Assembly: GCA_027487675.1 (NCBI GenBank) | Contig: JAIYDD010000144.1 | Span: 1-64,000, forward strand | Origin: Acetobacteraceae bacterium | GTDB taxonomy: Bacteria > Pseudomonadota > Alphaproteobacteria > Acetobacterales > Acetobacteraceae | Length of the DNA stretch: 64,000 nt | Reading direction: 5' to 3' | Shown: positions 33,622 through 59,188 of the stretch, piece by piece | Numbering within the stretch: the first letter of the stretch is position 1 | Layout: each line of letters opens with the position of its first letter | Notes under the pieces: generated by a model | Database searches by the model: none | What the model was told of the DNA's origin: nothing | Seen by the model: the letters and a program-made list of their open reading frames with translations, nothing else | Program-made: the position numbers and the translations under genes

Positions 33622-34617
33622 TCAGATGCGCGAGACGTCCATCACCTGGGGCGCGAAGATGTCCGCTGCCGTCAGCCTGCGCGAGGACAGTCCCTGTTCG
33701 TGGGAGTAGCGCGTGATCGTCTCGATCTCGTGCGCGCTTTCCTTGACGCCGTAGCGCCAGTAGTCGGCGCCCATCAGCCCGATCGTCTCCAGCGCCTCCG
33801 CCTCCACCCAGGGCAGCGTGACGTTCAGCGCGGTGAGGTTGCGCACCTCGTCCAGCGCGATGTTCTTCGCTTCCAGGAACGCCTTGTAGACGCTGGTCGC
33901 GAGCCAGGGCTCGCGCTCCAGCAGCGTCTTGCGGATGCCGATCAGGTGCATGATGGGGAAGAGCTTCGTCTTCTCCCAATACGCCCGCTCCACCTGGCGG
34001 TAGTTCGGCCACAGCCGGCCGATGTTCGGCGCGCCCTTCACGAAGCAGGATGGCGCGCGCGCGGTGAACAGCGCATCCAGCTCGCCGGCCACGAACATCT
34101 CGACAAGCGTCCGGTCCGCCGGGATCGGCGCCAGGTCGAGCCCCGGGATCGGCTTGATCGGCGTGCGCTCGTCGCGGCCCGGCTGTTCCTGCCCGCCGGT
34201 GCGCCAGATGATCTCCTCGGGCTTCACGCCGTACTCGTCCTGCAGCATGCCGCGCATCCAGACCGGCGCCGTCATCTGGTATTCCGGCAGCCCGATCCGC
34301 TTGCCGCGCAGATCCTCGGGCCCTTTGATTCCGCGGTCGGTGCGGATGTAGATGCCGTTGTGGCGGAAGACGCGGGAGACGAAGGCGGGGATGCCGACAT
34401 ACTGGCAGTCGCCGCGCGCCGTCTGGATCATGGTCGAGGAGAAGGACAGCTCCGTGACGTCGAACTCCGCACTGCGGAAGGCGCGGAAGAACACCTCCTC
34501 CGCCGCCATCGGCAGGAAGGTCACGTCGCAACCCTCGATGCCGACACGGCCATCCTTGATGGCGGCGACGCGGTCGTAGTCGCCGCAGGCGACGGTGATG
34601 GACAGGCGTTTCGGCAT
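33622..34617 (-). CDS. 4,5-dihydroxyphthalate decarboxylase-like protein (PBP2 fold)
   Basis: Protein of 331 aa in the family annotated as 4,5-dihydroxyphthalate decarboxylase, which has a periplasmic-binding-protein type 2 fold and no signal peptide here. Family segments are ITVACGDYDRVAAIKDGRV at the N-terminus, EFDVTELSFSS near residue 51, GIPAFVSRVFRHNGIYIRTD near 75, KRIGLPEYQMTAPVWMRGML near 105, and PIMHLIGIRKTLLE near 222. It directly abuts the molybdenum-hydroxylase large-subunit stop, so it is in the same operon. A paralogue is at 49667-50653. Decarboxylation of a hydroxylated aromatic acid is possible, but many members are untested and may only bind ligand. Confidence 0.78.
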   Translation of the reverse strand: MPKRLSITVACGDYDRVAAIKDGRVGIEGCDVTFLPMAAEEVFFRAFRSAEFDVTELSFSSTMIQTARGDCQYVGIPAFVSRVFRHNGIYIRTDRGIKGPEDLRGKRIGLPEYQMTAPVWMRGMLQDEYGVKPEEIIWRTGGQEQPGRDERTPIKPIPGLDLAPIPADRTLVEMFVAGELDALFTARAPSCFVKGAPNIGRLWPNYRQVERAYWEKTKLFPIMHLIGIRKTLLEREPWLATSVYKAFLEAKNIALDEVRNLTALNVTLPWVEAEALETIGLMGADYWRYGVKESAHEIETITRYSHEQGLSSRRLTAADIFAPQVMDVSRI

Positions 34618-36981: not shown

Positions 36982-37457
36982 CAGCCCGCCCTCATCAGCT
37001 CGGCCGCGCGGCGCACGGCTTTGACGATGTTCACATAGCCGGTGCAGCGGCAGATGTTGCCGTGCAATGCCTCGCGGATCTCCGTCTCGGAGGGATCGGG
37101 GTTCTCGCGCAGCAGCTCGATCGTGCTGGCCAGGAAGCCCGGCGTGCAGAAGCCGCATTGCAGCGCGTGCAGCTCGTGGAAGGCCTGTTGCACCGGATGC
37201 AGCCCGCCCGGCGGCGCCAGCCCCTCCACGGTCGTGATCGAGGCACCGTCCGCCTGCACCGCCAGCATCAGGCAGCTGCGCATCGTCGCGCCATCCACCA
37301 GCACGGTGCAGGCGCCGCAGACGCCATGGCCGCAGCCGACATGCGTGCCAGTCAGGCGCAGCTCGTGGCGCAGGAAATCCGCCAGCAGCAGCCGATCGGG
37401 CACGCGTCGCGTGCGCGAACTGCCATTGACGGTGACGGTGATCTCGACGGTGCTCAT
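36981..37457 (-). CDS. molybdenum hydroxylase 2Fe-2S subunit
   Basis: Small electron-transfer subunit (158 aa) with two [2Fe-2S] clusters. The plant-ferredoxin-type cluster uses C42, C47, C50 and C62 (GCGHGVCGACTVLVDG). The helical-domain cluster uses C101, C104, C136 and C138 (QCGFCTPG and ICRCTGY). All eight ligands are present. ATG at 37457 overlaps the FAD-subunit stop, and its own stop overlaps the large-subunit start. It carries electrons from the Mo centre to the FAD subunit. Confidence 0.94.
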   Translation of the reverse strand: MSTVEITVTVNGSSRTRRVPDRLLLADFLRHELRLTGTHVGCGHGVCGACTVLVDGATMRSCLMLAVQADGASITTVEGLAPPGGLHPVQQAFHELHALQCGFCTPGFLASTIELLRENPDPSETEIREALHGNICRCTGYVNIVKAVRRAAELMRAG

Positions 37458-38329
37458 GCCGCCGCACGCTCCGCGCCGGCCGCGCGCAGGATGGCGCGCT
37501 CCGCCAGGCCTTCCAGCACCGCGCGGCGATGCGCGGCAGAGGCGACCAGGTCCGAAGGCGGCTCGCATTCCGCCAGCGCCGCGCGCACCGCGTCGCGCAC
37601 CAGCCCGGGTTCCGCCCGGCGGCCGCGCAGCGCGCCCTCCACCGCGTCGAGGCGCAGCGGAAGGCCGCCCGCGCCGATGGCGGCCACGCGCAAGGCTGCG
37701 ATGCCGCCATCCGGCGCCGGCGTGAGCGCCACGGCGATGCCGGCCATGGCGAGGTCCGCCTGGCGGACGCCCACTTCCTCGAAGGCGCAGCGCGTGCCGG
37801 GCGGCAGCACCGGAATGCGGATCTCCGTCACCATCTCCTCCGGCTCGGCCGCCGTCACCAGCGCGTCGCGGAAGAAATCGCGCGCCGCCATCTCGCGCGA
37901 CCCGCCGCGGCGCGCCAGCACCACCCGCGCATCCAGGCAGAGCGCCACGCAGCAGGCTTCCGAGCTGGGATCCGCATGCGCGATGCTGCCGCCGATGGTG
38001 CCGCGGTTGCGCACCGCCCGCGGGCCCGCCCAGTGCAGGGCCTCGGCCAACAGCGGCGCCGCCTGCGCCACCGCCGGCGCGCGCTGCACCGCGATCTGCC
38101 GCGCCATGGCGCCCAGCCGCAACACGCCGCCTTCGACAGCGATGTCGTCCAAGCCCGCGCAGCGATTGAGGTCCACCAGCACCGCCGGCCGCGCCATGCG
38201 CATCACCAGCAGCGCCATCAGGCTCTGCCCGCCGGCCAGCACGCGCACGCTGTCCGCATGCTCGGCCAGCATGTCGCAGGCCTCCTCGATGCTGCGCGGC
38301 GCCAGGTGGCGGAAGGGCGGCGGCTTCAT
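37454..38329 (-). CDS. molybdenum hydroxylase FAD subunit
   Basis: FAD-binding medium subunit (291 aa), CoxM/XdhB-like. The two FAD loops are clear: VRVLAGGQSLMALL near residue 30 and RNRGTIGGSIAHADPSSE near 108. The C-terminal CO_deh_flav_C domain follows. ATG at 38329 overlaps the permease stop (ATGA). Importer and enzyme genes are therefore translationally coupled, which is good evidence that the hydroxylase acts on the transported compound. Confidence 0.92.
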   Translation of the reverse strand: MKPPPFRHLAPRSIEEACDMLAEHADSVRVLAGGQSLMALLVMRMARPAVLVDLNRCAGLDDIAVEGGVLRLGAMARQIAVQRAPAVAQAAPLLAEALHWAGPRAVRNRGTIGGSIAHADPSSEACCVALCLDARVVLARRGGSREMAARDFFRDALVTAAEPEEMVTEIRIPVLPPGTRCAFEEVGVRQADLAMAGIAVALTPAPDGGIAALRVAAIGAGGLPLRLDAVEGALRGRRAEPGLVRDAVRAALAECEPPSDLVASAAHRRAVLEGLAERAILRAAGAERAAA

Positions 38330-39120
38330 GCCTCCGCCCCCCGCACGCGCCGCCTCGGCTCGCCCCGCCGCCAGGGCATGATGCGGTGCTCCACCGCCTC
38401 CACCGCCGCGATCAGCACCACGCCGAGCACGGCCAGGATGGCGAGCGCGGCGAAGACGCGCGGCGTATCGAAGGACCCCTGCGCCGCCAGTATCACATGC
38501 CCGAGCCCGCGCTGCGAGGAGACGAACTCGCCGACGATCGCGCCGACCAGCGCCAGCGACATCGCCACCTTGAACCCGGCGAAGACCGAAGGCAGCGCCG
38601 CCGGCAGCTTGACCCGCCACAGGATGCGCAGCCGCGACCCGCGCAGCGCCGTCGCCAGATCGAGCACGTCCCGCGGCGCCGACCGCAGGCCGAGCGCCGC
38701 ATCGATCACGACCGCGAAGACCGCGATCAGGAAGGCGATGGCCAGCTTCGGCTCCGCCCCCGTGCCGAACCAGATCACCAGCAGCGGCGCGACCGCCACC
38801 TTCGGCACGCTGTTCAGCGCCACGAAGAGCGGGAACAGCAGCCGTTCCAGCAGCCGGCTTTCCGTGATCGCGATGGCGAAGAGCAGGCCCAGCACCGCGG
38901 CCGCGATGAAGCCGCCCAGCGCGATCAGCGTGGTGTACAGCGCCTGTTCCGCGTACCAGCCGGGAAAGTCCGCGATCTCCGCCACCACCGCACGCGGCGA
39001 AGGCACCAGATAGGCCGGCACGCCGAAGCCGCTGGTCGCCGCTTCCCAGGCCAGCACGAAGCCCGCCGCCCCGGCCAGCGGCAGCCACCAGCCGGACGAT
39101 GCCCCAGGCTCAGGCGTCAC
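38326..39120 (-). CDS. ABC transporter permease, SsuC/TauC type
   Basis: Inner-membrane permease (264 aa) of the nitrate/sulfonate/taurine importer family. Six hydrophobic segments are visible. The coupling loop ATALRGSRLRILWRVKLPAA and VGEFVSSQRGLGHVIL near the C-terminal third are diagnostic. The start is GTG at 39120, overlapping the ATPase gene by 11 bases, with a GGGG-containing site before it. The substrate is not inferable from this gene alone. Confidence 0.9.
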   Translation of the reverse strand: MTPEPGASSGWWLPLAGAAGFVLAWEAATSGFGVPAYLVPSPRAVVAEIADFPGWYAEQALYTTLIALGGFIAAAVLGLLFAIAITESRLLERLLFPLFVALNSVPKVAVAPLLVIWFGTGAEPKLAIAFLIAVFAVVIDAALGLRSAPRDVLDLATALRGSRLRILWRVKLPAALPSVFAGFKVAMSLALVGAIVGEFVSSQRGLGHVILAAQGSFDTPRVFAALAILAVLGVVLIAAVEAVEHRIMPWRRGEPRRRVRGAEA

Positions 39121-42563: not shown

Positions 42564-43169
42564 ATGCGCCAGGCGACACGGGCAGGGGCGGCGCGCACGC
42601 AAGGCGCGAAGCCGAAGGCGACGCGGCGGGCGGCGGAGGCAGCGGACCAGACCGTGGCCGAATCGGTCACCGACCCGGAACTGCGCGAGTTGATCACCCG
42701 CATGCCGCTCTGGCGCCGCCCCGGCTACCTCATCCGGCGCATGAATCAGATCCACTACGCCCTGTTCTACGAGGAATGCGCGGCCTTCGACATCACGCCC
42801 GTGCAGTACGGCGTACTGACGACGCTCTCGCTCAAGCCCGGCCTCGACCAGCACTCCATCGCGCAGGAGGTCGGCATAGACCGCACCAACGTCGCTGACG
42901 TGTTGACCCGCCTTGCGCGGCGCGGGCTGGTGAAGCGCGAACGCGGGCGGGAGGACAAGCGCACCTTCGTCACCTGGCTGACGCCCGAGGGCGCGCGCCT
43001 GACCAAGGCGATGCATGGGCCGATGCGCAGGGCCCAGGACCGCATGCTGGAACCGCTGGACGCCGCGGACCGCGAGCGGTTCATGGCCATGCTGCTCCGG
43101 TTGATCGACGCGAACAACGACGTCTCCCGCGCCGCGCTCGGCCCGGCGCGAATCGAGAAGGCCGCCTGA
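42564..43169 (+). CDS. MarR family transcriptional regulator
   Basis: Winged-helix regulator (201 aa), dimeric, usually a repressor released by phenolic or aromatic acids. A basic, alanine-rich N-terminal extension (about residues 1-35) precedes the MarR core. The core reads VQYGVLTTLSLKPGLDQHS, then IAQEVGIDRTNVADVLTRLA (recognition helix), GLVKRERGREDKRTFVTWLT (wing) and a C-terminal dimer helix. ATG at 42564 has GGGGGA upstream; the frame before it is a shadow of the amidase. It converges with the 2Fe-2S gene, one base apart. It probably controls the adjacent aromatic operons. Confidence 0.9.
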   Translation: MRQATRAGAARTQGAKPKATRRAAEAADQTVAESVTDPELRELITRMPLWRRPGYLIRRMNQIHYALFYEECAAFDITPVQYGVLTTLSLKPGLDQHSIAQEVGIDRTNVADVLTRLARRGLVKRERGREDKRTFVTWLTPEGARLTKAMHGPMRRAQDRMLEPLDAADRERFMAMLLRLIDANNDVSRAALGPARIEKAA

Positions 43170-43170
43170 C

Positions 43171-43500
43171 CTACAGGCGCTCGTCGGGCGGCGCGATCAG
43201 CGTTACCAGGTCGCGCACCAGCGGCTTGTTGGCCAGCGGGCGCAGCCGCATCTCCCGCGCTTCCAGCCGCGTCGTGCAAGCATACACCGTGCGGCCATCG
43301 ACCAGCAGCATGCATTCCTTGCAGGCATTTGCGTTGATGCAGGCGTAGCGGATGGCGAGGCTGGCATCCGCATGCGCGCGGATCCAGCGCAGTCCGTCCA
43401 GCACCGACTGCCCGGGCGCGAAGGGCACGTCGAAGCGCTCCTCGCGCGGCGCCTCTCCGGCCGCGCCACGCTGGATCAGAAGGGTGGCCGTGCCGGTCAT
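43171..43500 (-). CDS. small 2Fe-2S protein resembling the N-terminal domain of SdhB/FrdB
   Basis: A 109-aa ferredoxin-like protein. Cysteines C54, C60, C63 and C75 (YACINANACKECMLLVDG, then ACTT) follow the SdhB/FrdB [2Fe-2S] pattern with one extra residue in the first loop. The C-terminal domain that would carry 3Fe-4S and 4Fe-4S clusters is wholly absent. The gene overlaps the end of the fumarate-reductase-like flavoprotein by 4 bases, so the two should form a soluble pair. No membrane anchor gene follows. Its partner and direction of electron flow are unknown. Confidence 0.8.
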   Translation of the reverse strand: MTGTATLLIQRGAAGEAPREERFDVPFAPGQSVLDGLRWIRAHADASLAIRYACINANACKECMLLVDGRTVYACTTRLEAREMRLRPLANKPLVRDLVTLIAPPDERL

Positions 43501-45167
43501 GCCGCCACCTTCGCCAGCGCCAGCGCGCCGCCCGCCAGGCGCTGCACCTGGTTCACCTGCCATGTAGGATCCGTCTCGGCGTGGTCGGTGCGCTGGTGCG
43601 CGCCGCGACTCTCGGTGCGCGCCAGCGCCGCCTGCACCACCGCCTGCGCCACCGGCAGGCATTGCCGCAGGTCGAACCAGTCGATGCGCGCCATGTCGTG
43701 CGGCGCCGGCACGCCGGGCGGCGCTTCATCCAACGCAGCGGCCATCGCCGCAAGCTCGGCCTCTGCGCGCGCCAAGCCGGACGAAGCGCGCATGGGGCCA
43801 ACGTCGCGCGTCATGACCTGCTGCAACGCCTCGACCGCCGCGGCAGGGTTGCCGCCTGGCCTGCCTTGCGCCTCGACCAGGTCGCGCGCCGCCGCGGCCG
43901 AGCCGAGCGCGGTGCGCGACGGCACGGAAGCGGCTCGCGCGGCAGCAGACCGTCCGGCCTCGCGCCCGAAGGCCAGCGCCTCGGTGATCGCGTTGCCAGA
44001 GAGCCGGTTCGCGCCGTTCGCGCCGCCCACCGCCTCGCCCGCCGCAAACAGCCCTGGCACCGCGGTCTCCATGCGCGGCGTCGCGCGGATGCCACCCATG
44101 TGGTAGTGCGCGATGGGCGTCACCTCGACATCCTGCCGCGTCAGGTCGATGCCGTTGGCGGCGAGCCGGTCGATGACGGGCCCGAAGGCTTCGCGCAGCT
44201 TTGCCTCCGGCACATGCCGGAAGCTGAGCCACGCACCGCCGGACGGCGATCCGCGCCCCGCCGCCACCTCCTCCAGGATCGACTGCGTCGCCACGTCGCG
44301 CGTCGTTGTGTAGCGGCCCGACTGCTCGGCAGAATCGTGCCGCGCCAGGAAATCCTCGCCGCGCGCGTTCAGCAGCCGCCCACCCAGCTTGTAGCGGAAC
44401 GGGTCCCACATGATCGGGTCCATGCCGATCAGCCGTGGCGCCAGGTGGCCGATCGGGAAGAACTGCACGAACTCCATGTCCTGCAGCTCCGCCCCTGCGC
44501 GCAACGCCAGGCCGTAGCCGTCCCCGCCCATGTTGGCACTCGCGCTGTTGCGCGCGTAGAGCCGCGTCAGGCCACCCGTCGCGATGATGACGGCAGGCGC
44601 GGCGATCGTCACCGCGCACCCGCGCGGGATGTCGAGCCCGACGACGCCCGCCGCCTCCCCGTCCTCGACAAGGATGTCGGTGACCAGCAGGTCGCCGATG
44701 CGCCGGATCTCCGGCACTCGCTGCACCTGCGCGCGCAGCGCCTTGGACACGGCCGGCCCGGTGTTGAGCACGTCGACATAGACGCAGCGCGGGCGGTCGT
44801 GGCCCGGCGCCTGCACCTTGCGCAACGCCGTGCCGTCCCTCGCCCAGCCGACCTTCCAGGCATCCATCTCCAGGATGCACTCCACACCCGCCTCGCAGAG
44901 CAGCGCGGCAAGACGCGGGTCGCAAAGTCCTCGCCCGGCGGCGAGCGTGTCGCGCAGGTGGTGCTCGGCGTTGTCGCCATGCCGGTCCGGCGTCGCGGCG
45001 GCGACCGTCATCTGCGCCATCACCGTGGCGCCCCCTCGCCCGATGAGGCTGCGGTCAAGCAGCAGCACCTGCCGCGCGCCGCACCGCACCGCCTCGATCG
45101 CCGCATACATGCCGGCGCCGCCGGCGCCGATCACCACGACATCGGCGGAAAGGTCGGGCGCGGTCAT
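43497..45167 (-). CDS. FAD-dependent oxidoreductase of the fumarate reductase / SdhA type
   Basis: Flavoprotein (556 aa) of the SdhA/FrdA/L-aspartate-oxidase superfamily. The N-terminal FAD motif is VVVIGAGGAGMYAAIEA (residues 10-26). The later motif PIAHYHMGGIRATPRMET holds the active-site His and Gly pair, and VPGLFAAGEAVGGANGANRL is the second FAD site. At the place where SdhA has the flavin-linking histidine (SHTVAAQGG), this protein reads RGGATVMAQ, so FAD is probably not covalent. ATG at 45167 overlaps the GST stop. With the small 2Fe-2S protein it forms a reduced, anchorless SDH-like complex. It could oxidise or reduce a pathway dicarboxylate or enoate. Confidence 0.85.
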   Translation of the reverse strand: MTAPDLSADVVVIGAGGAGMYAAIEAVRCGARQVLLLDRSLIGRGGATVMAQMTVAAATPDRHGDNAEHHLRDTLAAGRGLCDPRLAALLCEAGVECILEMDAWKVGWARDGTALRKVQAPGHDRPRCVYVDVLNTGPAVSKALRAQVQRVPEIRRIGDLLVTDILVEDGEAAGVVGLDIPRGCAVTIAAPAVIIATGGLTRLYARNSASANMGGDGYGLALRAGAELQDMEFVQFFPIGHLAPRLIGMDPIMWDPFRYKLGGRLLNARGEDFLARHDSAEQSGRYTTTRDVATQSILEEVAAGRGSPSGGAWLSFRHVPEAKLREAFGPVIDRLAANGIDLTRQDVEVTPIAHYHMGGIRATPRMETAVPGLFAAGEAVGGANGANRLSGNAITEALAFGREAGRSAAARAASVPSRTALGSAAAARDLVEAQGRPGGNPAAAVEALQQVMTRDVGPMRASSGLARAEAELAAMAAALDEAPPGVPAPHDMARIDWFDLRQCLPVAQAVVQAALARTESRGAHQRTDHAETDPTWQVNQVQRLAGGALALAKVAA

Positions 45168-45814
45168 CAGGAGGCATCCGCCTGGATGGAAGGATGCGCT
45201 GCCTTGAACGCCGGCAGCTCCGCCGCCCGGTCGCCGATCGCGACGCTGAGGGGAAAGGCCGAGAGGTCGCAGCCGAACCTGCGCGCATTGGCGATCTGCG
45301 GCACCAGGCAGATCTCCGCCATGGTGAGTTGCTCGCCCAGGCACCAGGTCCCATGGCGCCCCTGCTGCACAAGGCTTGCCTCGAGGCTTCGCATGCCCTC
45401 GGCTACCCAGTGCGCGTACCACTCGTTGCTGTCGGCTTCCGACAGGCTCCACCGCCCGCGCAGATATTTCAGCACCCGCACATTGTTCAGAGGGTGGATG
45501 TCGCAGCCGATCACCTGGCACAGCATGCGGACGTAGGCGCGCGCCTTCGCATCGCGCGGCAGCAGCGGCGGATCGGGATGCGTCTCGTCCAGGTACTCCA
45601 TCATCGCCAGGCTCTGGGCGAAGACGGACCCGTCCTCCTCGACCAGCGCCGGAACCAGGCCCTGCGGGTTCAGCGCCATGTAGTCCACCGCGCGGTGCTG
45701 CATGCCGGGCAGCGAGACGTAGCGCGGCTCCCAGTCCAGCCCCTTCAGCGCGAGCGCGATGCGCAGGCGGTAGGAGGTCGACGAGCGGAAAAAGGTGTAG
45801 AGGACACGCCCCAT
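45167..45814 (-). CDS. maiA: zeta-class glutathione S-transferase, maleylacetoacetate / maleylpyruvate isomerase type
   Basis: GST of 215 aa. The zeta-class N-terminal motif is SSTSYRLRIAL (residues 11-21), where most members have SSCS. NPQGLVPALVEEDG near residue 48, QSLAMMEYLDETHP near 67 and the C-terminal LTMAEICLVPQI motif are all typical. Zeta GSTs isomerise cis to trans double bonds of maleylacetoacetate or maleylpyruvate after aromatic ring cleavage. That fits a gene beside a ring-hydroxylating dioxygenase. It is translationally coupled on both sides by ATGA overlaps. The maleyl substrate is inferred. Confidence 0.85.
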   Translation of the reverse strand: MGRVLYTFFRSSTSYRLRIALALKGLDWEPRYVSLPGMQHRAVDYMALNPQGLVPALVEEDGSVFAQSLAMMEYLDETHPDPPLLPRDAKARAYVRMLCQVIGCDIHPLNNVRVLKYLRGRWSLSEADSNEWYAHWVAEGMRSLEASLVQQGRHGTWCLGEQLTMAEICLVPQIANARRFGCDLSAFPLSVAIGDRAAELPAFKAAHPSIQADAS

Positions 45815-46200
45815 CAGGCGCTCGCCGCGCCCTGTGCGGCCTTCTGCAGGATGTGGTCGGGGGTGGAGACCACCACCTCCACATAGCGCGGCGTGAAGGC
45901 AGCCGGGCCACCTTCGATGTGCTTGATGAACTCCGGCTTCATCTGCTTCAGGATGGGCAGGATCGCGGCATGTGCTTCGATGCTTGCCCATTCCGCGATC
46001 AGGAAGAAGCGCTGCGGGTCCTTGCTGTCGCGGCACAGCACCCCGTCCTTCCGCTGCGCAGAGGATTTGTGCATCGGGTTGTCGTCGCCATAGTCGAAGG
46101 CTTCGAACAGCCGGATGAAATCCTCCTCGAACCCTTCCTTGACGCGGAAATCGTAGATGTGCAGGACATTGCCGCGCTGTGCGAGCGGTTCCTGGGCCAT
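45814..46200 (-). CDS. antibiotic-biosynthesis-monooxygenase (ABM) fold protein
   Basis: Small dimeric alpha-beta-barrel type protein (128 aa). The pattern NVLHIYDFRVKEGFEEDFIR at the N-terminus, RFFLIAEWASIEAHAAI in the centre and the C-terminal YVEVVVST strand match ABM/YgiN-like proteins. ATG at 46200 has GGGAGG nine bases upstream; the longer frame to 46305 lacks support. It is the first gene of a four-gene operon (ABM, GST, flavoprotein, 2Fe-2S), divergent from the dioxygenase. The role may be a cofactor-free monooxygenase or an isomerase-type helper. Confidence 0.75.
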   Translation of the reverse strand: MAQEPLAQRGNVLHIYDFRVKEGFEEDFIRLFEAFDYGDDNPMHKSSAQRKDGVLCRDSKDPQRFFLIAEWASIEAHAAILPILKQMKPEFIKHIEGGPAAFTPRYVEVVVSTPDHILQKAAQGAASA

Positions 46201-46343: not shown

Positions 46344-49142
46344 ATGGCGTTCCAGCCGGCGGTGTCTCGTGCGGCGCTTGCGGAAGACCAGGCGGTCGGC
46401 GTGCGCCTGGGTGACAAGGAGGTCGCTCTCTTCCTGCTCCGGGACGAGGTCTTCGCCACGCATGGCGTCTGCACCCATGCTCTCGCCTTCCTGAAGGACG
46501 GCTTCGTCGAGGGCGGCGAGGTCGAGTGCCCGCTGCACCAGGGCCGCTTCGATATCCGCAGCGGCAGGGCCCTATGCGCGCCGTTGACGCGCGACCTGCC
46601 GACCTATGCCGTCGAGATGCGGGGCGACATGGTCTGGGTGGACCTCGACCAGCCCGGCCGTGTCAGCGCGCCCGCCCCCGTCGCGTCCAAGGCGGAGGTG
46701 GGCACGACAAGCGTCGTCGTCCTCGGCGCCGGGCAGGCAGCCGCCGCCGCCATCCGCGCGATGCGCGGCGCGGGCTTCGGCGGCACGATCACGCTGGTCG
46801 GCGAGGAGCCGCACCTGCCCTATGAACGCCCGCCGCTGTCGAAGGAGGCGCTGCTCGACGATGCCGCGGCGCATGCCGACTGCCTGACGGACGACGAGGC
46901 GGCGGCCCTTGCCGTCACGCCGCTGCTGTCGCGCCGTGCGGTCGGGCTGGATGCGGTGGCGAAGCGGGTGACGCTCTCCGACGGCACGGTGCTCGGCTAC
47001 GATGCGGTGCTGCTTGCCACGGGTGGCAGGGCGCGTCGCCTCTCCGTGCCAGGTGCGCACCTGCCCGGCGTCCTGCACTTGCGCACGCGGGAAGACGCGG
47101 CCGACATCGCCGCGGCACTGCGGCGCGCGCGCCGCGTCGTCGTAGTAGGCGGCGGCTTCATCGGGCTGGAACTTGCCTCCGCCGCGCGCCGCCTCGACCT
47201 TGCGGTGACGGTTCTGGAACAGGCCCCCGAGATCATGGCGCGGCTGCTGCCCGCCCCACTCGGCCGCGCCTTCCGCCACCTGGCGCAGCGGCACTCGGTG
47301 GAGGTCCGCACCAGGATCGCGGTGAGCGGCATCGAGCGCCAGGGCGCCGCCCTTCTAGTCGCCGCCGGCGCCGAACGGTTCGAGGCGGATGCCGTGCTGG
47401 TCGGCATCGGGCTGGAACCGGAAGTGGATCTGGCGCAGCAGGCCGGCTGCTCGCTACTGGCCGGCGGCGTGCGCGTGGATGTCGAAGGCCGCACGAGCGT
47501 CGCGGGCATCTGGGCCGCTGGCGACTGCGCCGCGCATCCGCACGCGATCGGCGGCCGGGCGCTGCGGCTGGAGAGTTGGCAGAACGCCGAGGACACCGGC
47601 GCCGCCGCCGGGCGCAGCATCGCCGGTGCCGCGGCGGCGCCAGCGCGCGCGCCCTGGTTCTGGTCGGATCAGTTCGGCGTCAACATCCAGATGCTCGGCG
47701 TGCCGCACGCGACGGATCGCGTGGCCCGCAGTGGGCAGGTCTACTTTACGGTCGATGCGGGCGGCAGCGTCACCGCCGTGACCGCCTTCGGCAATGCTGG
47801 CGCGATCCGCGCGGCACGCACCGCGATGACGCTGCCCGACGATGTGGAATGGCTGACCGATGCGGAGGAAGATCGGATGGACACGCATGCGGAGACCCGC
47901 GGCCTCTCGCTCTCCCGCCGGTATGTCTGGCCGGCGGAGGGCCTGACCCGCATCCCTGACTGGGTCTACACCGACCAGTGGATCTACGAGCGCGAGGTGG
48001 AGCGGATCTTCAAGGGCCGCACCTGGAACTACGTCGCGCTGGAAAGCGAGGTCGCCCACCCCGGCGACTTTATCCGCTCCCATGTCGGCCCGGTCCCCGT
48101 GGTGGTGAGCCGCGCCGAGGATGGCAGCATCAACGTCTTCGAGAACCGGTGCAGCCATCGCGCCGCTGAGTTCTGCCGCGACCTGCGCGGCACGGTGAAG
48201 GAGTTCGTCTGCCCGTATCACCAGTGGACCTACGACCTGAAGGGCAATCTGCAGGGCGTGCCCTTCCGTCGCGGCGTCGCTGGCAAGGGCGGGATGCCGG
48301 CGGATTTCCGCAACGAGCATCACGGCCCGCGCCGCCTCAATGTCACGACGCACCGCGGCGCGGTCTTCGCCAGCTACGCCCAGGACATGGAGAGTGTCCA
48401 GGACTACCTCGGGCCCGAGATCCTGCGCGAGTTCGAGGCGACCTTCGACGGCCGGAAGCTCGTCGTGCTCGGCCACTATCGGCACACGCTTCCTGGCAAT
48501 TGGAAGCTCTACCACGAGAACCTGAAGGACCCGTACCACGCGACACTGCTGCACACCTTCCTCGTCGCGTTCGGGCTTCTCGTCGCCGGCAACAAAAGCC
48601 TGATGTTGGCCGATGCCAGCGGCCGCCACGGCGTCATGTGCTCGGCGAAGAGCGATCCGTCCAAGATCGCGGCCGAGGACAAGAAGGAGATGCGCGCCTA
48701 CCACGAAGGCATGCGCCTGCACGACCCGCGCATCATGGACTTCATCGACGAGTTCGACAGCCCCTGGTCGGTCACCATGGCGACGATCTGGCCCAACCTG
48801 ATCGTGCAGCGGGAGATGAACACCCTCGGCATCCGCCAGATCGTCCCGACCGGCCCGAACGAGTTCATCATGAAGTGGACCATGTTCGGCTTCGAGGGCG
48901 ATACGCCGGAGATGACCGCACATCGCCTGCGCCAGGGCAACCTGATGGGTCCCTCAGGCTTCCTCGGCCTCGAGGACAACGAGGCGATGAAGTTCGTCCA
49001 GGACGGCATGCTGCGCGTGCCGGAAGGCGAGCATTATGTCGGCCTCGATCCCGCGACGCCGACCGGGACCTCGGAGACGCTGATCTCGGAATCCGCGATC
49101 CGCGGCATGTACAGCCACTGGCGCGAGGTGATGGGGATCTGA
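46344..49142 (+). CDS. fusion: Rieske ferredoxin + ferredoxin reductase + Rieske oxygenase alpha subunit
   Basis: One uninterrupted 932-aa frame encodes all parts of a ring-hydroxylating dioxygenase except the beta subunit. Residues 1-105 are a Rieske ferredoxin with C43-x-H45 and C62-x2-H65. Residues about 122-505 are an FAD/NAD(P)H ferredoxin reductase (VVVLGAGQAA, then VVVVGGGFIGLELA, then GIWAAGDCA). Residues 512-932 are an oxygenase alpha subunit: Rieske site C603-x-H605 and C623-x2-H626, and mononuclear iron site in ENLKDPYHATLLH. These are normally three genes. An internal ATG at 47877 (M512) with a strong GGAGGAA could also produce free alpha subunit. The enzyme would cis-dihydroxylate or dealkylate an aromatic acid; the substrate is unknown. 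Confidence 0.88.
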   Translation: MAFQPAVSRAALAEDQAVGVRLGDKEVALFLLRDEVFATHGVCTHALAFLKDGFVEGGEVECPLHQGRFDIRSGRALCAPLTRDLPTYAVEMRGDMVWVDLDQPGRVSAPAPVASKAEVGTTSVVVLGAGQAAAAAIRAMRGAGFGGTITLVGEEPHLPYERPPLSKEALLDDAAAHADCLTDDEAAALAVTPLLSRRAVGLDAVAKRVTLSDGTVLGYDAVLLATGGRARRLSVPGAHLPGVLHLRTREDAADIAAALRRARRVVVVGGGFIGLELASAARRLDLAVTVLEQAPEIMARLLPAPLGRAFRHLAQRHSVEVRTRIAVSGIERQGAALLVAAGAERFEADAVLVGIGLEPEVDLAQQAGCSLLAGGVRVDVEGRTSVAGIWAAGDCAAHPHAIGGRALRLESWQNAEDTGAAAGRSIAGAAAAPARAPWFWSDQFGVNIQMLGVPHATDRVARSGQVYFTVDAGGSVTAVTAFGNAGAIRAARTAMTLPDDVEWLTDAEEDRMDTHAETRGLSLSRRYVWPAEGLTRIPDWVYTDQWIYEREVERIFKGRTWNYVALESEVAHPGDFIRSHVGPVPVVVSRAEDGSINVFENRCSHRAAEFCRDLRGTVKEFVCPYHQWTYDLKGNLQGVPFRRGVAGKGGMPADFRNEHHGPRRLNVTTHRGAVFASYAQDMESVQDYLGPEILREFEATFDGRKLVVLGHYRHTLPGNWKLYHENLKDPYHATLLHTFLVAFGLLVAGNKSLMLADASGRHGVMCSAKSDPSKIAAEDKKEMRAYHEGMRLHDPRIMDFIDEFDSPWSVTMATIWPNLIVQREMNTLGIRQIVPTGPNEFIMKWTMFGFEGDTPEMTAHRLRQGNLMGPSGFLGLEDNEAMKFVQDGMLRVPEGEHYVGLDPATPTGTSETLISESAIRGMYSHWREVMGI
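47864..47879 (+). promoter_or_regulatory. internal ribosome-binding site and start for free oxygenase alpha subunit
   Basis: GGAGGAA at 47864-47870 is six bases before an in-frame ATG (47877), exactly where the reductase domain ends and the oxygenase domain begins (MDTHAETRG). The spacing is near ideal. Separate production of the alpha subunit beside the fusion is therefore plausible. Confidence 0.5.
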
Positions 49143-49144
49143 TC

Positions 49145-49657
49145 ATGCTCGACACGCGGCAGCGCATGGACGCGCGCTTCGAAGCCCTGCTGGTTCGGGC
49201 GGACATCGAGGACTTCAACAACGCCTACTGCGCCGCGCTCGATGCGCAGCAGCTGGAGGAATGGACCGGCTTCTTCACCGAGGACGCATTCTACTCCGTC
49301 ATCAGCCGGGAGAATGCCGAGGCGGGTTACCCCGTCGGCCTGATCCATTGCGAGGGCCGCGGTATGATCCGCGACCGCGCCTTCGCGCTGCTCAAGACGG
49401 CCATGTTCGGCCCGCGCTACCTGCGGCACATGGTCTCCAACCTCGCGGTCGACGCGCCCGACGCGTCCGGCGCCATCCGCGCCCGCGCCAACTACATCGT
49501 CTTCGAAGTGCTGACCGATCGGCCCGACGCCCGCATCCTGCAGGTGGGCCAGTTCCGCGACGTGTTCCGCCACGTCGACGGAGCCCTGAAGCTCGCGGAG
49601 CGGCGCTGCGTCTACGACAACCTGCTGGTGCCGACGGCGCTCTGCATCCCGGTCTGA
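49145..49657 (+). CDS. ring-hydroxylating dioxygenase beta subunit
   Basis: Small subunit (170 aa) with the NTF2/SnoaL-type cone fold that assembles with alpha subunits (usually alpha3beta3). The family pattern is clear: IEDFNNAYCAALDAQQLEEW, FFTEDAFYSVISREN near residue 45, FGPRYLRHMVSN near 88, and KLAERRCVYDN near the end. ATG at 49145 lies two bases after the fusion stop, so the two are co-translated. It has no catalytic metal of its own. Confidence 0.9.
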   Translation: MLDTRQRMDARFEALLVRADIEDFNNAYCAALDAQQLEEWTGFFTEDAFYSVISRENAEAGYPVGLIHCEGRGMIRDRAFALLKTAMFGPRYLRHMVSNLAVDAPDASGAIRARANYIVFEVLTDRPDARILQVGQFRDVFRHVDGALKLAERRCVYDNLLVPTALCIPV

Positions 49658-49666
49658 GGCGCGGCG

Positions 49667-50653
49667 TCAGACCCTGGACATCTCCAGCGTGCCGGGGTGG
49701 AACATCTCCTCCGGCGTCAGGTGGCGCACCGATAGGCCCTGCGTGAAGGAATAGCGCGCCATCGCCTCGATGGCCGCGCGATTCGCCTCCACGCCGTAGC
49801 TCCAATGGTCGGCGCCGAACAGGCGCTGCGCGTCCAGCAGCTCTTCGCGCACCCAGGGCAGCGTCACGAAATTCACGCCGGCATCGTCCAGATCAAGCGC
49901 AGCGAGTTGCTTGGCCTTGACGAATGCCTTGTAGACGCTGACGGGGAGCCAGGGGTGCTGCTCCGCCAGGCTGCGCCGGATGCCAATCATGTGCATCGGC
50001 GGGAAGATGCCGGTGTGGCGATAGTAGTCGCGCTCCACCGCGCGGGGGTCGTCGAACAGCCGCCGCAGCACCGGGTTGCTGCCGACGCCGCGTGGCACGC
50101 GCGCCGTGATCAGGCCATCCAGTTCGCCCAACTCGAACAGCTCCGTCAGCGTCCGGTCGTGCGGGATGCGCGTGAGGGAGACGGAAGGGTCCAGCGTCAG
50201 GCGCGCCCGCTCCTTCCGCCCCGGCTCGTCCTGCCCGCCGCTGAACCAGGCGATGTCCCGCGGGCGCACGCCATACTCGTCCTCCAGGATCCCGCGCGCC
50301 CACAGGCACGCCGTCATCTGGTATTCCGGCAGCCCGATCCGCTTGCCGACGAGGTCCTGCGGCGTCGCGATGCCGCGATCTGCGCGCACATAGATCGCTG
50401 AATGACGGAACGCCTTGGAGACGAAGGCCGGCGCTGCGACATAGGCGTTCTCCCCGCGCGCCAGCGTCATCATGTAGCTGCTGCAGGAGATCTCGGTAAC
50501 GTCGAACTCCGCGCCATTGAAGGCTCGGTGGAAGGCCTCCTCCGCCGAAAGCGGCACGGCGGTCACCTCGCATCCCTCGATCCGCACGCGACCGTCGAAG
50601 ATCGCCTGCACACGATCGTAGCGCTCGCAGGCTAGACTGATGCGCAGCGTCAT
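49667..50653 (-). CDS. 4,5-dihydroxyphthalate decarboxylase-like protein, second copy
   Basis: Paralogue (328 aa) of the protein at 33622-34617, sharing the start pattern ISLACERYDRVQAIFDGRV, EFDVTEISCSSYMM, KRIGLPEYQMTACLWARGIL, and MHMIGIRRSLAE. No signal peptide is present, so it should be cytoplasmic. It converges with the dioxygenase beta subunit across nine bases and is divergent from the ThDP-enzyme operon. A cis-diol or catechol acid from the dioxygenase could be its substrate, but ligand sensing or binding is equally possible given the binding-protein fold. Confidence 0.78.
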   Translation of the reverse strand: MTLRISLACERYDRVQAIFDGRVRIEGCEVTAVPLSAEEAFHRAFNGAEFDVTEISCSSYMMTLARGENAYVAAPAFVSKAFRHSAIYVRADRGIATPQDLVGKRIGLPEYQMTACLWARGILEDEYGVRPRDIAWFSGGQDEPGRKERARLTLDPSVSLTRIPHDRTLTELFELGELDGLITARVPRGVGSNPVLRRLFDDPRAVERDYYRHTGIFPPMHMIGIRRSLAEQHPWLPVSVYKAFVKAKQLAALDLDDAGVNFVTLPWVREELLDAQRLFGADHWSYGVEANRAAIEAMARYSFTQGLSVRHLTPEEMFHPGTLEMSRV

Positions 50654-54875: not shown

Positions 54876-56006
54876 TCAGCGGAACAGCCGCGCCTTGATC
54901 ACCGCCCAGATCAGCGCCAGCAGCCCGAGCTCGCGCTGCGCGGCCGGCGGCGCCTGGCCGGCGACGCGCGCCTCGAGGTTCGCGGCGAAATCGGCGGCCA
55001 GCCGCCGCACCAGCCCCTCCACCACCGCGCCACGGCTGAACTGCGCCAGCGCGCCCGACAGCCGCCAGCTGAGTTCGACGCGCAGCTCGCTCGCCGCCTC
55101 GCCGCGTGGCACGACCTGCCAGCGCACCTCGCCTTCCGCCGAGGATCCCGTCCCGCCGTCGCGCCCGCGCCCCACCAGCACGCCGCTGCGCGCAGCCTGA
55201 TCCAGGGTGATGCTGCCCTGCCCGGCCAGCGCGACCTTGATCGGGCCGAGCGCCACGCGCACCACGCCGGACACCGCCTCGCCCTCAAGCGCCGTCAATT
55301 CCGCACCCGGCAGGCAGGCCGCGACGGCGCGCGGGTCGGACAGCACCGCCCAGGCCGCGTCGGCCGATACGCCAAGCGCGATGGTCTGCGCGATCCCCGC
55401 ACCACCGGCCGCCAAGGCCGCCGGCGCAGCCGCGACCGACGCCGGCGCGACCGAAGCATCGGCCGGCGCGGCGACGCGCGCCTGCACCGGCACCGCCGCC
55501 GCGTCCGCTGCCGGTTCGCGCCCGGCGGCCACCGCGGCGACGGCCTCCACGATGCCGACATAGCCCGTGCAGCGGCAGAGATTGCCCGACAGTTCCTCGC
55601 GGATCCGCGTCTCCGGCACGTCGCCCAGCCGCAGCACGATGTCGCGCGAGGCGATCAGCATCCCCGGCGTGCAAAAGCCGCACTGCAGCCCGTGATGGGC
55701 TGCGAAGGCCTCGCGCAGCGCCGCCATGGTCGGGTCGGCGTCGAAGCCCTCGATCGTCGTCACCTGCGCGCCGTCGCATTCGACGGCGTAGGCGATGCAG
55801 GACCGCTGCGGCGTGCCATCCACCAGCACGGTGCAGGCGCCGCAGACGCCCTGCTCGCAGCCCAGATGCGTGCCCGTCAGGTTCAGCTGCTCGCGCAGGA
55901 AATCGCCGAGATGCATGCGCGGCTCGACCTCCGCCGAGACGCGCCGGCCGTTGACGGTCAGCGCGACGGCGATGCGCAGCCGCGGCGATGCGATGCCGGT
56001 GTCCAT
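54876..56006 (-). CDS. molybdenum hydroxylase 2Fe-2S subunit fused to a CoxG-like domain
   Basis: A 376-aa chimera. Residues 1-160 are a complete small subunit: C50, C55, C58, C70 for the first [2Fe-2S] cluster and C109, C112, C144, C146 for the second. A low-complexity Ala/Val/Pro linker of about 45 residues follows. Residues about 208-350 are a CoxG/SRPBCC domain (AWAVLSDPRAVAACLPGAEL, then GPIKVALAGQGSITLD), ending in a hydrophobic segment (LGLLALIWAVIKARLF) that may anchor to the membrane. CoxG recruits CO dehydrogenase to the inner membrane in carboxydotrophs. Here the tether is covalently attached to the enzyme. It lies 3 bases after the FAD subunit and converges with enamidase across 7 bases. 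Confidence 0.9.
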   Translation of the reverse strand: MDTGIASPRLRIAVALTVNGRRVSAEVEPRMHLGDFLREQLNLTGTHLGCEQGVCGACTVLVDGTPQRSCIAYAVECDGAQVTTIEGFDADPTMAALREAFAAHHGLQCGFCTPGMLIASRDIVLRLGDVPETRIREELSGNLCRCTGYVGIVEAVAAVAAGREPAADAAAVPVQARVAAPADASVAPASVAAAPAALAAGGAGIAQTIALGVSADAAWAVLSDPRAVAACLPGAELTALEGEAVSGVVRVALGPIKVALAGQGSITLDQAARSGVLVGRGRDGGTGSSAEGEVRWQVVPRGEAASELRVELSWRLSGALAQFSRGAVVEGLVRRLAADFAANLEARVAGQAPPAAQRELGLLALIWAVIKARLFR

Positions 56007-56009
56007 CGG

Positions 56010-56840
56010 TCAGCCCTCCCCGGCGATGTCGCGCAGCGCGCTGCGCACCGCAACCATGCGCAGCCGCCGCGCGGCAGGATCGAGATGCGGCAGCAGGCGC
56101 GCGATCTCTTCGGCCAGCGCGGCCTCCGCCGCGTCCGGCCCGTGGTCCCGCAGCGCCTCGCTGGTGGCCGGCAGCAGCACCGGCGCCGCCTCCACCGCGC
56201 CTGCGACCACCCGCGCCAGGCCGCGCGCCGGATCCAGCACCACGACCCCGATCGCGGAGGCGAACTCGCCCGTCTTCCGGCACACCTTCCGGTAGGCCCA
56301 GCGGGCACCGGCCGACAGCAGCGGGAGCTCCACCGCGGCCAACACCTCGTCATCGGCCAGCGCGGTCGCGAAGGCGCCGCGCAGGAAGGCGCCCGAGGCG
56401 ATCCGCCGCGTGCCTCGCGCGCTGCGCGCCACCGCGACGCCATCCAGCGCGGCGAAGACGGAAACCCAGTCCGCGGCCGGATCGGCATGCGCCAGGCTGC
56501 CGCCGATGGTCCCGCGGTTGCGCACGGCGCGATAGGCGATGCCGCGCGCGACATGCCGCAGCAGGCCGCGCGCCGGGTCCTCCACCGCGCCGTCCTCGAT
56601 CTCCGCATGGGTGAAGCCGGCGCCGATGGACAGCGTCGCGTCATCCGCCGCCAGCGCGCGGAACCCGTCCGCGCGCTTGATGTCCACCAGCCGCATCGGC
56701 CGCGCGAGCCGCAGGTTCAGCATCGGCCCGAGCGACTGCCCGCCGGCCAGCAGCCGCGCCGCGCCGCCGCCCGCGGCCAGCATCTCCGACGCCTCCTCCA
56801 GCGTCCGCGCGCGCACATAGTCGAAGGCGACGGGCTTCAT
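56010..56840 (-). CDS. molybdenum hydroxylase FAD subunit
   Basis: FAD-binding medium subunit (276 aa). The first FAD loop is ARLLAGGQSLGPMLNLRLA near residue 30 and the second RNRGTIGGSLAHADPAADW near 107. The C-terminal domain follows, including WAYRKVCRKTGEFASAIGVV near 180. ATG at 56840 overlaps the large-subunit stop by 4 bases. It is the middle gene of the second hydroxylase set in the window and would pass electrons to an external acceptor. Confidence 0.92.
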   Translation of the reverse strand: MKPVAFDYVRARTLEEASEMLAAGGGAARLLAGGQSLGPMLNLRLARPMRLVDIKRADGFRALAADDATLSIGAGFTHAEIEDGAVEDPARGLLRHVARGIAYRAVRNRGTIGGSLAHADPAADWVSVFAALDGVAVARSARGTRRIASGAFLRGAFATALADDEVLAAVELPLLSAGARWAYRKVCRKTGEFASAIGVVVLDPARGLARVVAGAVEAAPVLLPATSEALRDHGPDAAEAALAEEIARLLPHLDPAARRLRMVAVRSALRDIAGEG

Positions 56841-59188
56841 GCCGCGCGCTCCTCCGCCGCGGCGATGGCGGCCAGGATGCGCGCCGGGCTCGCCGGGATG
56901 GCGTCCACCCGCGCGCCGATGTCGCGCAGCGCATCGTTGATCGCATTCACCACCGCACCCGCCGGCGCGATGGCGCCGCCCTCCCCCACGCCCTTGAAGC
57001 CATGCGCCGTGTGCGGCGACAGCGTCTCGGTGTGCCGGATGCGGAAGCGCGGCAGCTCCGTCGGGCCGGGCAGCAAATAGTCGAGCAGCGTCGAGGCGAG
57101 CGGCTGCCCGCGCTCGTCATAGGGGCTTTCCTCGAACAGCGCGGAGCCGATGCCCTGCGCCGCGCCGCCATGCGTCTGCCCCTCGACGATCATCGGGTTC
57201 ACCATGCGGCCGCAATCCTCGACGATCGCGTAGTCCAGGATCTCGACCAGGCCGGTGTCGGGGTCGACGGCGATCTTCGCGGCGTGGCTCGCATAGCTGA
57301 ACACGCCGTTGTCGGTGGTGGGCTTGTAGCCCTCGGTCGCCTCGAGCCCGCCGGTGTTCACGCCGTCCGGCAGTTGGTCCGGGCGCAGATACCAGGCGCG
57401 TCCGATATCGGCGTAGGTGACGCTCGCCGCGCCCGCATGCACCGCGCCATCGCGGAACTCGACCGCGGCGGGATCGGCCTGCAGCAGATGCGCCGCGATG
57501 GCGCGGATGCGCTCCGCCACCACGCCCGCGGCGCGGGAGACGGCGCCGCCCGCCATGACGATCCCGCGCGAGGCATAGGCGCCCGTGCTGAACGGCGTGA
57601 CGGCGGTGTCGCCCAGGGTGACGCGGATATCGGCCAGCGGCACGCCCGTCATCTCATGCGCCACCTGCGCGAGCGTCGTCTCCAGCCCCTGGCCGATGGT
57701 GTGGATGCCGGACCGCACTTCCAGCGCGCCATCCGGCGTCAGCTTCACATGCGCCTGGTCGTGGCCGGGCACCAGCGGCAGGCCCCAGCTGGCGAAGACC
57801 TTGGTGCCATGCGCCGACTGTTCCGTGTAGGTCGCGAAGCCGATGCCGATCCAGCGCCCCTGCGCGTCGCGCTTCGGCCCGGCGCGGAACTCATCCAGCC
57901 CAATCATCTCCCGCGCCATCGCCAGCGAGCCCGGATAGTCGCCGCTGTCATAGTGCTTGTTGGTGACGTTGACGTAGGGCATCGCGGAGGCCGGCACGAG
58001 GTTCTCCGCCCGCACGTCGCAGGCTTCCCGCCCCACCGCGCGCGCGATCGCGTCGATCACCTGCTCGATCGCGAAGCACACGCCGGGCCGCGCCACGCCG
58101 CGATACGGCGCGAAGGGCGGCTTGTTCGTCGCGACCGAGAACACCTTGCAGCGATAGGCGCGGAAATCGTAGGGCCCCGGCAGGTTGCCGCCCGCCTGCG
58201 CCGCTTCCAGGCACGCCGTGAAGGGCCAGACGGAATAGGCGCCGGTGTCCACCGACACTTCCGCATCCAGCCCCAGCATCCGCCCGCGTTCGTCGGCATA
58301 GGCAACCAGCTTGTAGTGGTGCTGCCGCGCATTCGCGCCGGCCACAAGATGCTCCCGCCGGTCCTCGATCCAGCGGAACGCCGCCTTGCGCGTCAACGCG
58401 AGCCAGGCGACCGCCACCTCCTCCGGCTGCAACAGGCATTTGTAGCCGAAGCCGCCGCCGACATCCGGCGGCGCGATTCGGATGATCGCCTGCGGGATGC
58501 CGAGCACCTCCGCCAGCCCTGCGCGGATCATGTGCGGCACCTGGGTCGAAGTGTTCAGCACCAGTTGCCCCGCGCGGAAATCCCACCACGCGACGAGGCC
58601 CTTGCCTTCCATCGGATGCATGGTCTGTCGCGCGCAGCTGACTTCCAGCTCTACCTTCACCGGCGCGGAGGCCGCCACCGGCGCGATGCCGCTGTCGAAA
58701 TGGCTCTGCAGGAACAGGTTGTCGCCCCACTGCTCGTGCAGCAGCGCGGCACCCGACGCGCGCCCGGCCTCGCAAGACGCGATGGCGGGCAACTCGTTGA
58801 ACTCGACCTCGACGCGCTCCGCCAGGTCCTCGGCCTCCGCGCGCGTATCGGCGACGCACATCGCCACCGCCTCGCCCACATAGCGCACCTTCTGCGCCGC
58901 CAGCACCGGCCATTCCGACAGCTTGTAGCCGGGGATCGAGGAGCGCGTGACGATCGGCTTCACGCCGACCAGGTCATCCAGGAAGAACACCGCCTCCGCC
59001 GCATTTGCCGGCTTCGCGCGCCGCGTGATGCGCGCATGCGCCGCGGGGCTGCGCAGGAAGGCCACGTCGCGCATGCCGGCGATGCGGATATCCGCCACAT
59101 ACTGCCCGCGCCCCGCGAGCAGCCGCGCATCCTCCTTCCGGCGGACGCGCGCGCCGATGCCCTCGCCCTTCGCCTCCATACCGTCCAT
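56837..59188 (-). CDS. molybdenum hydroxylase large subunit (CoxL/XDH family)
   Basis: Catalytic molybdopterin subunit (783 aa). RRKEDARLLAGRGQYVADI at the start, APPDVGGGFGYKCLLQPEE near residue 242, KPPFAPYRGVARPGV near 355, GAYASRGIVMAGGA, and HGFKGVGEGGAIAP near 743 with the catalytic glutamate are all intact. The AYRCSFR loop of CO dehydrogenase is absent, so CO is unlikely. ATG at 59188 has GGGGGAGA. It lies 14 bases after dadA and downstream of dctPQM on the same strand, which suggests that the TRAP system brings in its substrate. Nicotinate- or hydroxynicotinate-like compounds are candidates because enamidase is encoded alongside. Confidence 0.92.
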   Translation of the reverse strand: MDGMEAKGEGIGARVRRKEDARLLAGRGQYVADIRIAGMRDVAFLRSPAAHARITRRAKPANAAEAVFFLDDLVGVKPIVTRSSIPGYKLSEWPVLAAQKVRYVGEAVAMCVADTRAEAEDLAERVEVEFNELPAIASCEAGRASGAALLHEQWGDNLFLQSHFDSGIAPVAASAPVKVELEVSCARQTMHPMEGKGLVAWWDFRAGQLVLNTSTQVPHMIRAGLAEVLGIPQAIIRIAPPDVGGGFGYKCLLQPEEVAVAWLALTRKAAFRWIEDRREHLVAGANARQHHYKLVAYADERGRMLGLDAEVSVDTGAYSVWPFTACLEAAQAGGNLPGPYDFRAYRCKVFSVATNKPPFAPYRGVARPGVCFAIEQVIDAIARAVGREACDVRAENLVPASAMPYVNVTNKHYDSGDYPGSLAMAREMIGLDEFRAGPKRDAQGRWIGIGFATYTEQSAHGTKVFASWGLPLVPGHDQAHVKLTPDGALEVRSGIHTIGQGLETTLAQVAHEMTGVPLADIRVTLGDTAVTPFSTGAYASRGIVMAGGAVSRAAGVVAERIRAIAAHLLQADPAAVEFRDGAVHAGAASVTYADIGRAWYLRPDQLPDGVNTGGLEATEGYKPTTDNGVFSYASHAAKIAVDPDTGLVEILDYAIVEDCGRMVNPMIVEGQTHGGAAQGIGSALFEESPYDERGQPLASTLLDYLLPGPTELPRFRIRHTETLSPHTAHGFKGVGEGGAIAPAGAVVNAINDALRDIGARVDAIPASPARILAAIAAAEERAA

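Follow-up and report, generated by a model that had tools for sequence, protein, structure and literature searches.

A natural fusion of ferredoxin, reductase and oxygenase alpha subunit in proteobacterial Rieske oxygenases, with a conserved putative internal start for the catalytic subunit

A single open frame in an Acetobacteraceae genome joins a Rieske ferredoxin, its FAD reductase and a Rieske oxygenase alpha subunit in one chain, and a putative second, intragenic ribosome-binding site lies at the border between reductase and oxygenase. The gene occupies positions 46344–49142 (+) of the window, i.e., the 64,000-nucleotide stretch of DNA that was analyzed (assembly GCA_027487675.1, contig JAIYDD010000144.1). 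We consider it probable that the whole is best explained as a fused redox chain plus alpha subunit, with the second ribosome-binding site giving free alpha. The gene most likely has two products, an alpha of 101 kDa with the complete redox chain and a free alpha of 48 kDa, and both would join the beta subunit in mixed hexamers. With somewhat less assurance, we lean toward a broader statement: that these are the first recognized natural Rieske oxygenases, found in Alpha- and Gammaproteobacteria, to carry a full redox chain on the catalytic subunit, with the ratio of redox-carrying to free alpha set by the intragenic site, which would be under selection while the reductase is attached and tend to vanish after the reductase is lost.

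The frame runs for 932 codons (932 aa) without an internal stop, and Pfam places all three domains within it, in agreement with the sequence-only reading, which had proposed one continuous 932-codon frame. It begins with a Rieske-type [2Fe-2S] ferredoxin domain (46344–46658, +; residues 1–105, with Pfam Rieske_2 at 3–99) whose cluster motif is intact (C43-x-H45...C62-x2-H65). This is followed by an FAD/NAD(P) ferredoxin reductase domain of the glutathione-reductase type (46698–47831, +; residues 119–496, with Pfam Pyr_redox_2 at 123–419 and Reductase_C at 438–496), in which the FAD and NAD motifs are intact (GAGQAA at 128 and GGGFIG at 269). The closest solved structures of the reductase domain are 3lxd and 3ef6 (TodA), and it scored 307.9 bits against the HcaD model NF042949, for which the cut-off is 450. 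A linker containing the putative internal start (47832–47921, +) then leads into the oxygenase. Its protein sequence differs among relatives, both length and sequence vary across the 39 fusions described below, and its GC3 is 0.77 vs. 0.87–0.91 in the domains. The oxygenase alpha-subunit domain (47922–49142, +; residues 527–932 plus stop) carries Pfam Rieske (PF00355) at 560–643 and Ring_hydroxyl_A (PF00848) at 709–931, and its nearest solved structure is salicylate 5-hydroxylase 7c8z (E 1e-119). Both the second Rieske motif, from C603, and the mononuclear iron motif D729-x2-H-x4-H are intact, and the corresponding stretches (603–626 and 729–737) are invariant among 20 aligned fusions. With its C-x-H...C-x2-H cluster motif and its 2-His-1-carboxylate iron site, the domain belongs to the alpha subunits of Rieske non-heme iron oxygenases. 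A separate beta-subunit gene (49145–49657, +; Pfam Ring_hydroxyl_B), as found with alpha3beta3-type enzymes, begins two bases past the fusion stop. The predicted masses are 101.1 kDa for the full-length protein and 47.9 kDa for the 421 aa from Met512. An AlphaFold model of the full chain, built with 20 fused relatives, reached a mean pLDDT of 64 overall with the oxygenase half mostly <50; it is uninformative on domain docking and is the basis of no claim here.

The three-part frame was found in 47 loci including the window, which correspond to 39 distinct proteins, 38 of them besides that of the window. This set combines 27 loci in which a scan of one genome per species detected the uninterrupted frame with further loci from whole-genome sampling. 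Carriers include Bradyrhizobium, Rhodopseudomonas, Xanthobacter, Azospirillum, Oceanibaculum, Ferrovibrio and Rhodovarius, as well as the gammaproteobacterium Alloalcanivorax, and several single-contig genomes are among them. A complete plasmid of Paracoccus seriniphilus, counted apart from the 38 loci, holds a fused frame that is open over 989 codons (L152:7845–10814, NZ_CP067132.1). The sequence-only reading had suggested looking for the same fusion in relatives, and had also named the danger that a base error at the junction hides a stop codon or frameshift. Such a sequencing or assembly error, concealing the boundary between separate genes, might be suspected since the window comes from a draft genome in 288 contigs. 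However, the same frame is open in independent genomes, namely, in the 38 other distinct loci, in single-contig genomes and in the complete plasmid, which argues that it is not a base error. Moreover, the closest relative of the window fusion, from Rhodovarius (L052), is 78% identical, shares the frame layout and keeps the Shine–Dalgarno (SD) sequence with its ATG. We therefore attach next to no probability to an error, which is in effect refuted; judged by these sequence comparisons, the fusion is real, old and widespread.

In taxonomy-drawn samples, the fusion was present in 5/385 for the class, 2/398 for the phylum and 11/249 for one family, and in 3/245 of the sampled genomes of one gammaproteobacterial order. 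Purifying selection acts on each of the three domains, with dN/dS at 0.01–0.34 overall in eight compared pairs, i.e., 0.04–0.34 for the ferredoxin, 0.08–0.27 for the reductase and 0.01–0.14 for the oxygenase; the linker frame gave 0.10–0.65. One apparent candidate, Caballeronia SBC2, had been suspected because its pieces join in one frame, but stops between the genes rule it out. A metagenome-assembled genome labeled Mesoflavibacter (L051, CP051228.1) has an alphaproteobacterial-type pic cluster with the fusion and is probably mislabeled or mis-binned. In the public annotation of the Paracoccus plasmid, the alpha gene is listed from the internal linker ATG despite the open 989-codon frame, and annotation of this kind may explain why the fusion was overlooked.

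We then analyzed the internal start. In the window, an SD-like GGAGGAA (47864–47870, +) precedes an in-frame ATG (47877–47879, +; Met512), with eight bases between GGAGG and the ATG, and this is the predicted start of the free 421-aa alpha. The sequence-only reading had drawn attention to this pair at the reductase/oxygenase border, and the comparison strengthens its case: the pair recurs in almost every fused relative, at a rate far above that of three kinds of background, and sits in weakly structured mRNA. An in-frame ATG, GTG or TTG with an SD match of at least 4 bases is present in the reductase/oxygenase linker of 38/39 fusions; in the shorter ferredoxin/reductase linker, the number is 9/39. 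To reduce redundancy, the fusions were thinned to a diverged set of 24 sequences <85% identical (median 60%). Within this set, the reductase/oxygenase linker of 17 of the 24 contains an ATG preceded by an SD of 5 or more bases, vs. 0.9 expected by codon shuffle and 8.9 by synonymous redraw (z 4.3), while none of the 24 has one in the ferredoxin/reductase linker; some start with an SD of 4 or more bases is retained in 23. An SD of at least 5 bases stands before 17/28 linker ATGs (61%), compared with 15/503 other in-frame ATGs (3%; Fisher p 2e-16). These counts come from related sequences that are not fully independent, although the internal controls share the same relatedness. Around the internal start, the mRNA shows less structure than at a median 95% of the positions in its gene; it also shows less than synonymous redraws of the site (p 0.001) and than other positions of the linker (p 2e-5). 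When the internal SD was compared with the N-terminal one in the 24 fusions, it was stronger in 16, equal in 3 and weaker in 5. As a positive control, unfused relatives have the start of their alpha genes in this very place, preceded by similar SDs. A start with SD is thus conserved beyond the coding and codon background, the exception among the fusions being the L051/L120 lineage, in which the site is absent or at most weak. Relatives that have no reductase but still carry the ferredoxin in fusion appear mostly to have lost the site: three lineages of ferredoxin–oxygenase fusions are without an ATG having an SD of at least 5 bases, with one 4-base match among them and one fusion offering only GTG/TTG candidates.

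How far does this conservation reflect function? The fusion could be real and the internal SD and ATG only a little-used fossil of a separate alpha gene, so that just the 101-kDa protein matters. In relatives with separate genes, alpha does begin in this region and has an SD, and fusion by stop loss would leave such a site behind. A fossil, however, fits poorly with a site that is kept in 23/24 diverged fusions at about 60% median identity, while the linker around it changes freely in protein sequence and length, and neither the synonymous bias toward an SD nor the low mRNA structure at the site speaks for it. The three ferredoxin–oxygenase lineages without a strong-SD ATG also count against it, and we regard this explanation as unlikely. 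A different possibility, which we find more doubtful still, is that the enzyme does not work as the fused protein: cleavage in the linker, or synthesis of mostly free alpha, would leave a system of ordinary separate components. The variable linker and an internal SD that is usually stronger than the N-terminal one would suit this idea. Selection for separate components, however, would not keep an uninterrupted frame, and the junction is free of stops and frameshifts in 39 distinct loci, with the linker frame maintained at the dN/dS given above.

In the reading that we prefer, in which the fused redox-carrying alpha and the free alpha both come from one gene, electrons would pass along a single chain from NAD(P)H to the FAD of the reductase, then to the Rieske cluster of the ferredoxin, the Rieske cluster of alpha and finally the mononuclear iron. 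The separate beta subunit would complete an alpha3beta3 core, and the ribosome-binding site in the linker would start free alpha from the same message. As the internal SD is usually the stronger of the two, free alpha may be at least as abundant as fused alpha; redox-carrying alpha would then be made in a minority or comparable amount, giving hexamers of mixed content with fewer than three redox arms. The docking place of the ferredoxin in alpha3beta3 enzymes is on the stem, where alpha and beta meet (PMC9361823), and a tethered ferredoxin might reach that of its own or a neighboring alpha. The benefit of such a ratio could be to limit wasteful NADH oxidation while each hexamer is still supplied. 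Weakening of the site where the reductase is gone fits this reading. The synthesis of both proteins, their assembly into common hexamers and an effect of their ratio on wasteful NADH use are what we infer.

The origin of the fusion was addressed with a tree of 83 oxygenase domains. One clade (100/99) holds all 39 fusions together with 6 ferredoxin–oxygenase fusions and 8 unfused alphas, and the separate-gene sets fall outside it; the fused reductase domains likewise form one clade (SH-aLRT 99). Since there is one reductase clade and one supported oxygenase clade, the fusion probably arose once and was later partially lost. Two-part ferredoxin–oxygenase fusions without a reductase (L063, L065, L066, L067 and L141–L144) occur in three places in the oxygenase tree, and the simplest reading is that each place reflects loss of the reductase only. 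By the same simplest reading, the whole redox part was lost in L007, L008 and L062, which, Rhodovarius aside, are the nearest relatives of the window. The 1.2–6 kb upstream of the close relatives without a fusion (L007, L008, L009, L062 and L145–L147) held no remnants of a reductase. Given its repeated loss within its own clade, the fusion is not indispensable.

Compared with known systems, the window fusion shares its cofactor set, its inferred electron order and its separate beta with class IIB three-component oxygenases such as the toluene, biphenyl and cumene dioxygenases. By the Batie scheme, its FAD-only, glutathione-reductase-type reductase, without a plant-type 2Fe-2S domain, and its Rieske ferredoxin are those of class IIB. 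However, in that class ferredoxin, reductase and alpha are separate proteins, whereas here they form one chain of 932 codons with a putative internal start, and the 38 other distinct loci have the same domain architecture. The best NCBIfam models for the window alpha, beta and ferredoxin are those of anthranilate 1,2-dioxygenase AndAaAbAcAd, but this identity was rejected since all scores are far under the curated cut-offs: 392 of 750 bits for AndAc, 137.8 of 230 for AndAd (NF041685), 101.9 of 150 for AndAb (NF041683) and 248 of 650 for AndAa. The closest solved alpha by sequence, the salicylate 5-hydroxylase oxygenase (7c8z), is a chain without fused redox domains. Self-sufficient P450s (CYP116B and CYP102) resemble the window fusion in carrying redox partners and oxygenase on one chain, but belong to an unrelated family and have no beta subunit; we know of no conserved internal start in them. 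Although all redox and catalytic domains of the window enzyme lie on one chain, beta is still separately encoded, so that "self-sufficient" holds for its redox chain only.

The same idea of linking redox partners to the oxygenase underlies artificial Rieske oxygenase fusions (Runda et al. 2024, as cited in PMC12445004), which, unlike the window gene, are engineered. According to a review of August 2025 (PMC12445004), which discusses only engineered fusions, a natural self-sufficient Rieske system had yet to be identified. Our text searches of open papers, with subscription papers and preprints outside their scope, returned no report of the three-part architecture, which does not prove priority. 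Wasteful oxygen uncoupling and the separateness of the redox partners limit Rieske oxygenases as biocatalysts, and engineers have been building fusions; dozens of natural fusions offer linker designs and domain orders that are ready for use. That the internal start is conserved suggests that evolution disfavors a reductase on every catalytic subunit, which amounts to a specific, testable statement on the best reductase/oxygenase ratio.

The substrate is probably a hydroxylated (hetero)aromatic carboxylate, and the related fusions suggest descent from 6-hydroxypicolinate hydroxylation. Several fused relatives cluster with genes for 2,5-dihydroxypyridine dioxygenase, N-formylmaleamate deformylase, maleamate amidase and maleate isomerase, and their clusters also hold a PicC-like amidohydrolase, a MarR regulator and a molybdenum hydroxylase. 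These genes represent the picolinate pathway of Alcaligenes faecalis JQ135 and Bordetella bronchiseptica, where PicB (picB1–B4) hydroxylates 6-hydroxypicolinate, according to the account of that pathway in PMC10142695. The gene context of several fused relatives is thus like that of PicB1B2B3B4, the 6-hydroxypicolinate 3-monooxygenase of JQ135 and B. bronchiseptica RB50; PicB is described there as four genes, in contrast to the fusion here, a comparison made by description rather than by PicB sequence. Since related fusions lie in clusters of a described monooxygenase, the label "dioxygenase" given by the sequence-only reading was too specific. The pic-type context (PicA, PicC and the 2,5-dihydroxypyridine genes) of these relatives is not present in the window, where only the molybdenum hydroxylase and MarR were found, and a complete picolinate pathway was not found in the host. 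Homologues sought gene by gene elsewhere in the host genome reached 47% for NicX, 30–32% for PicC and 29–31% for maleate isomerase. As the host is without an orthologous remainder of the pic pathway, any assignment of a substrate here is tentative.

In place of pic genes, the window neighborhood holds a MaiA-type isomerase, an amidase and a small conserved protein. The isomerase is a glutathione S-transferase-type maleylacetoacetate/maleylpyruvate isomerase of the MaiA family (45167–45817, −; TIGR01262, 257 bits, above the cut-off of 171), with 56–64% homologues in several fused loci. A protein of ~122 aa, transcribed divergently from the fusion (45814–46182, −), is without a Pfam or NCBIfam match and is probably a pathway enzyme; homologues 50–81% identical stand beside the oxygenase in >40 loci, fused or not. 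A MarR-type regulator (42597–43169, +; Pfam MarR) has homologues next to most fused loci. The three-gene molybdenum hydroxylase (S, M and L; 54876–59188, −) is homologous to neighbors of the fusions, its L subunit being 57% identical to the L of a pic-type cluster and as much as 76% identical to L subunits encoded next to other fusions. With a second gene set (34618–38381, −), two molybdenum hydroxylases flank the oxygenase, which points to catabolism of N-heteroaromatic or similar compounds. Adjacent genes at 43171–45158 (−) encode an SdhA/FrdA-like flavoprotein and a Fer2_3 iron–sulfur protein that score far under the cut-offs of known fumarate reductases; a soluble two-subunit reductase of the pathway is possible for this pair. 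Finally, two similar proteins (33622–34617 and 49667–50653, both −) look substrate-binding or of the 4,5-dihydroxyphthalate decarboxylase type, the second having a weak Phosphonate-bd match.
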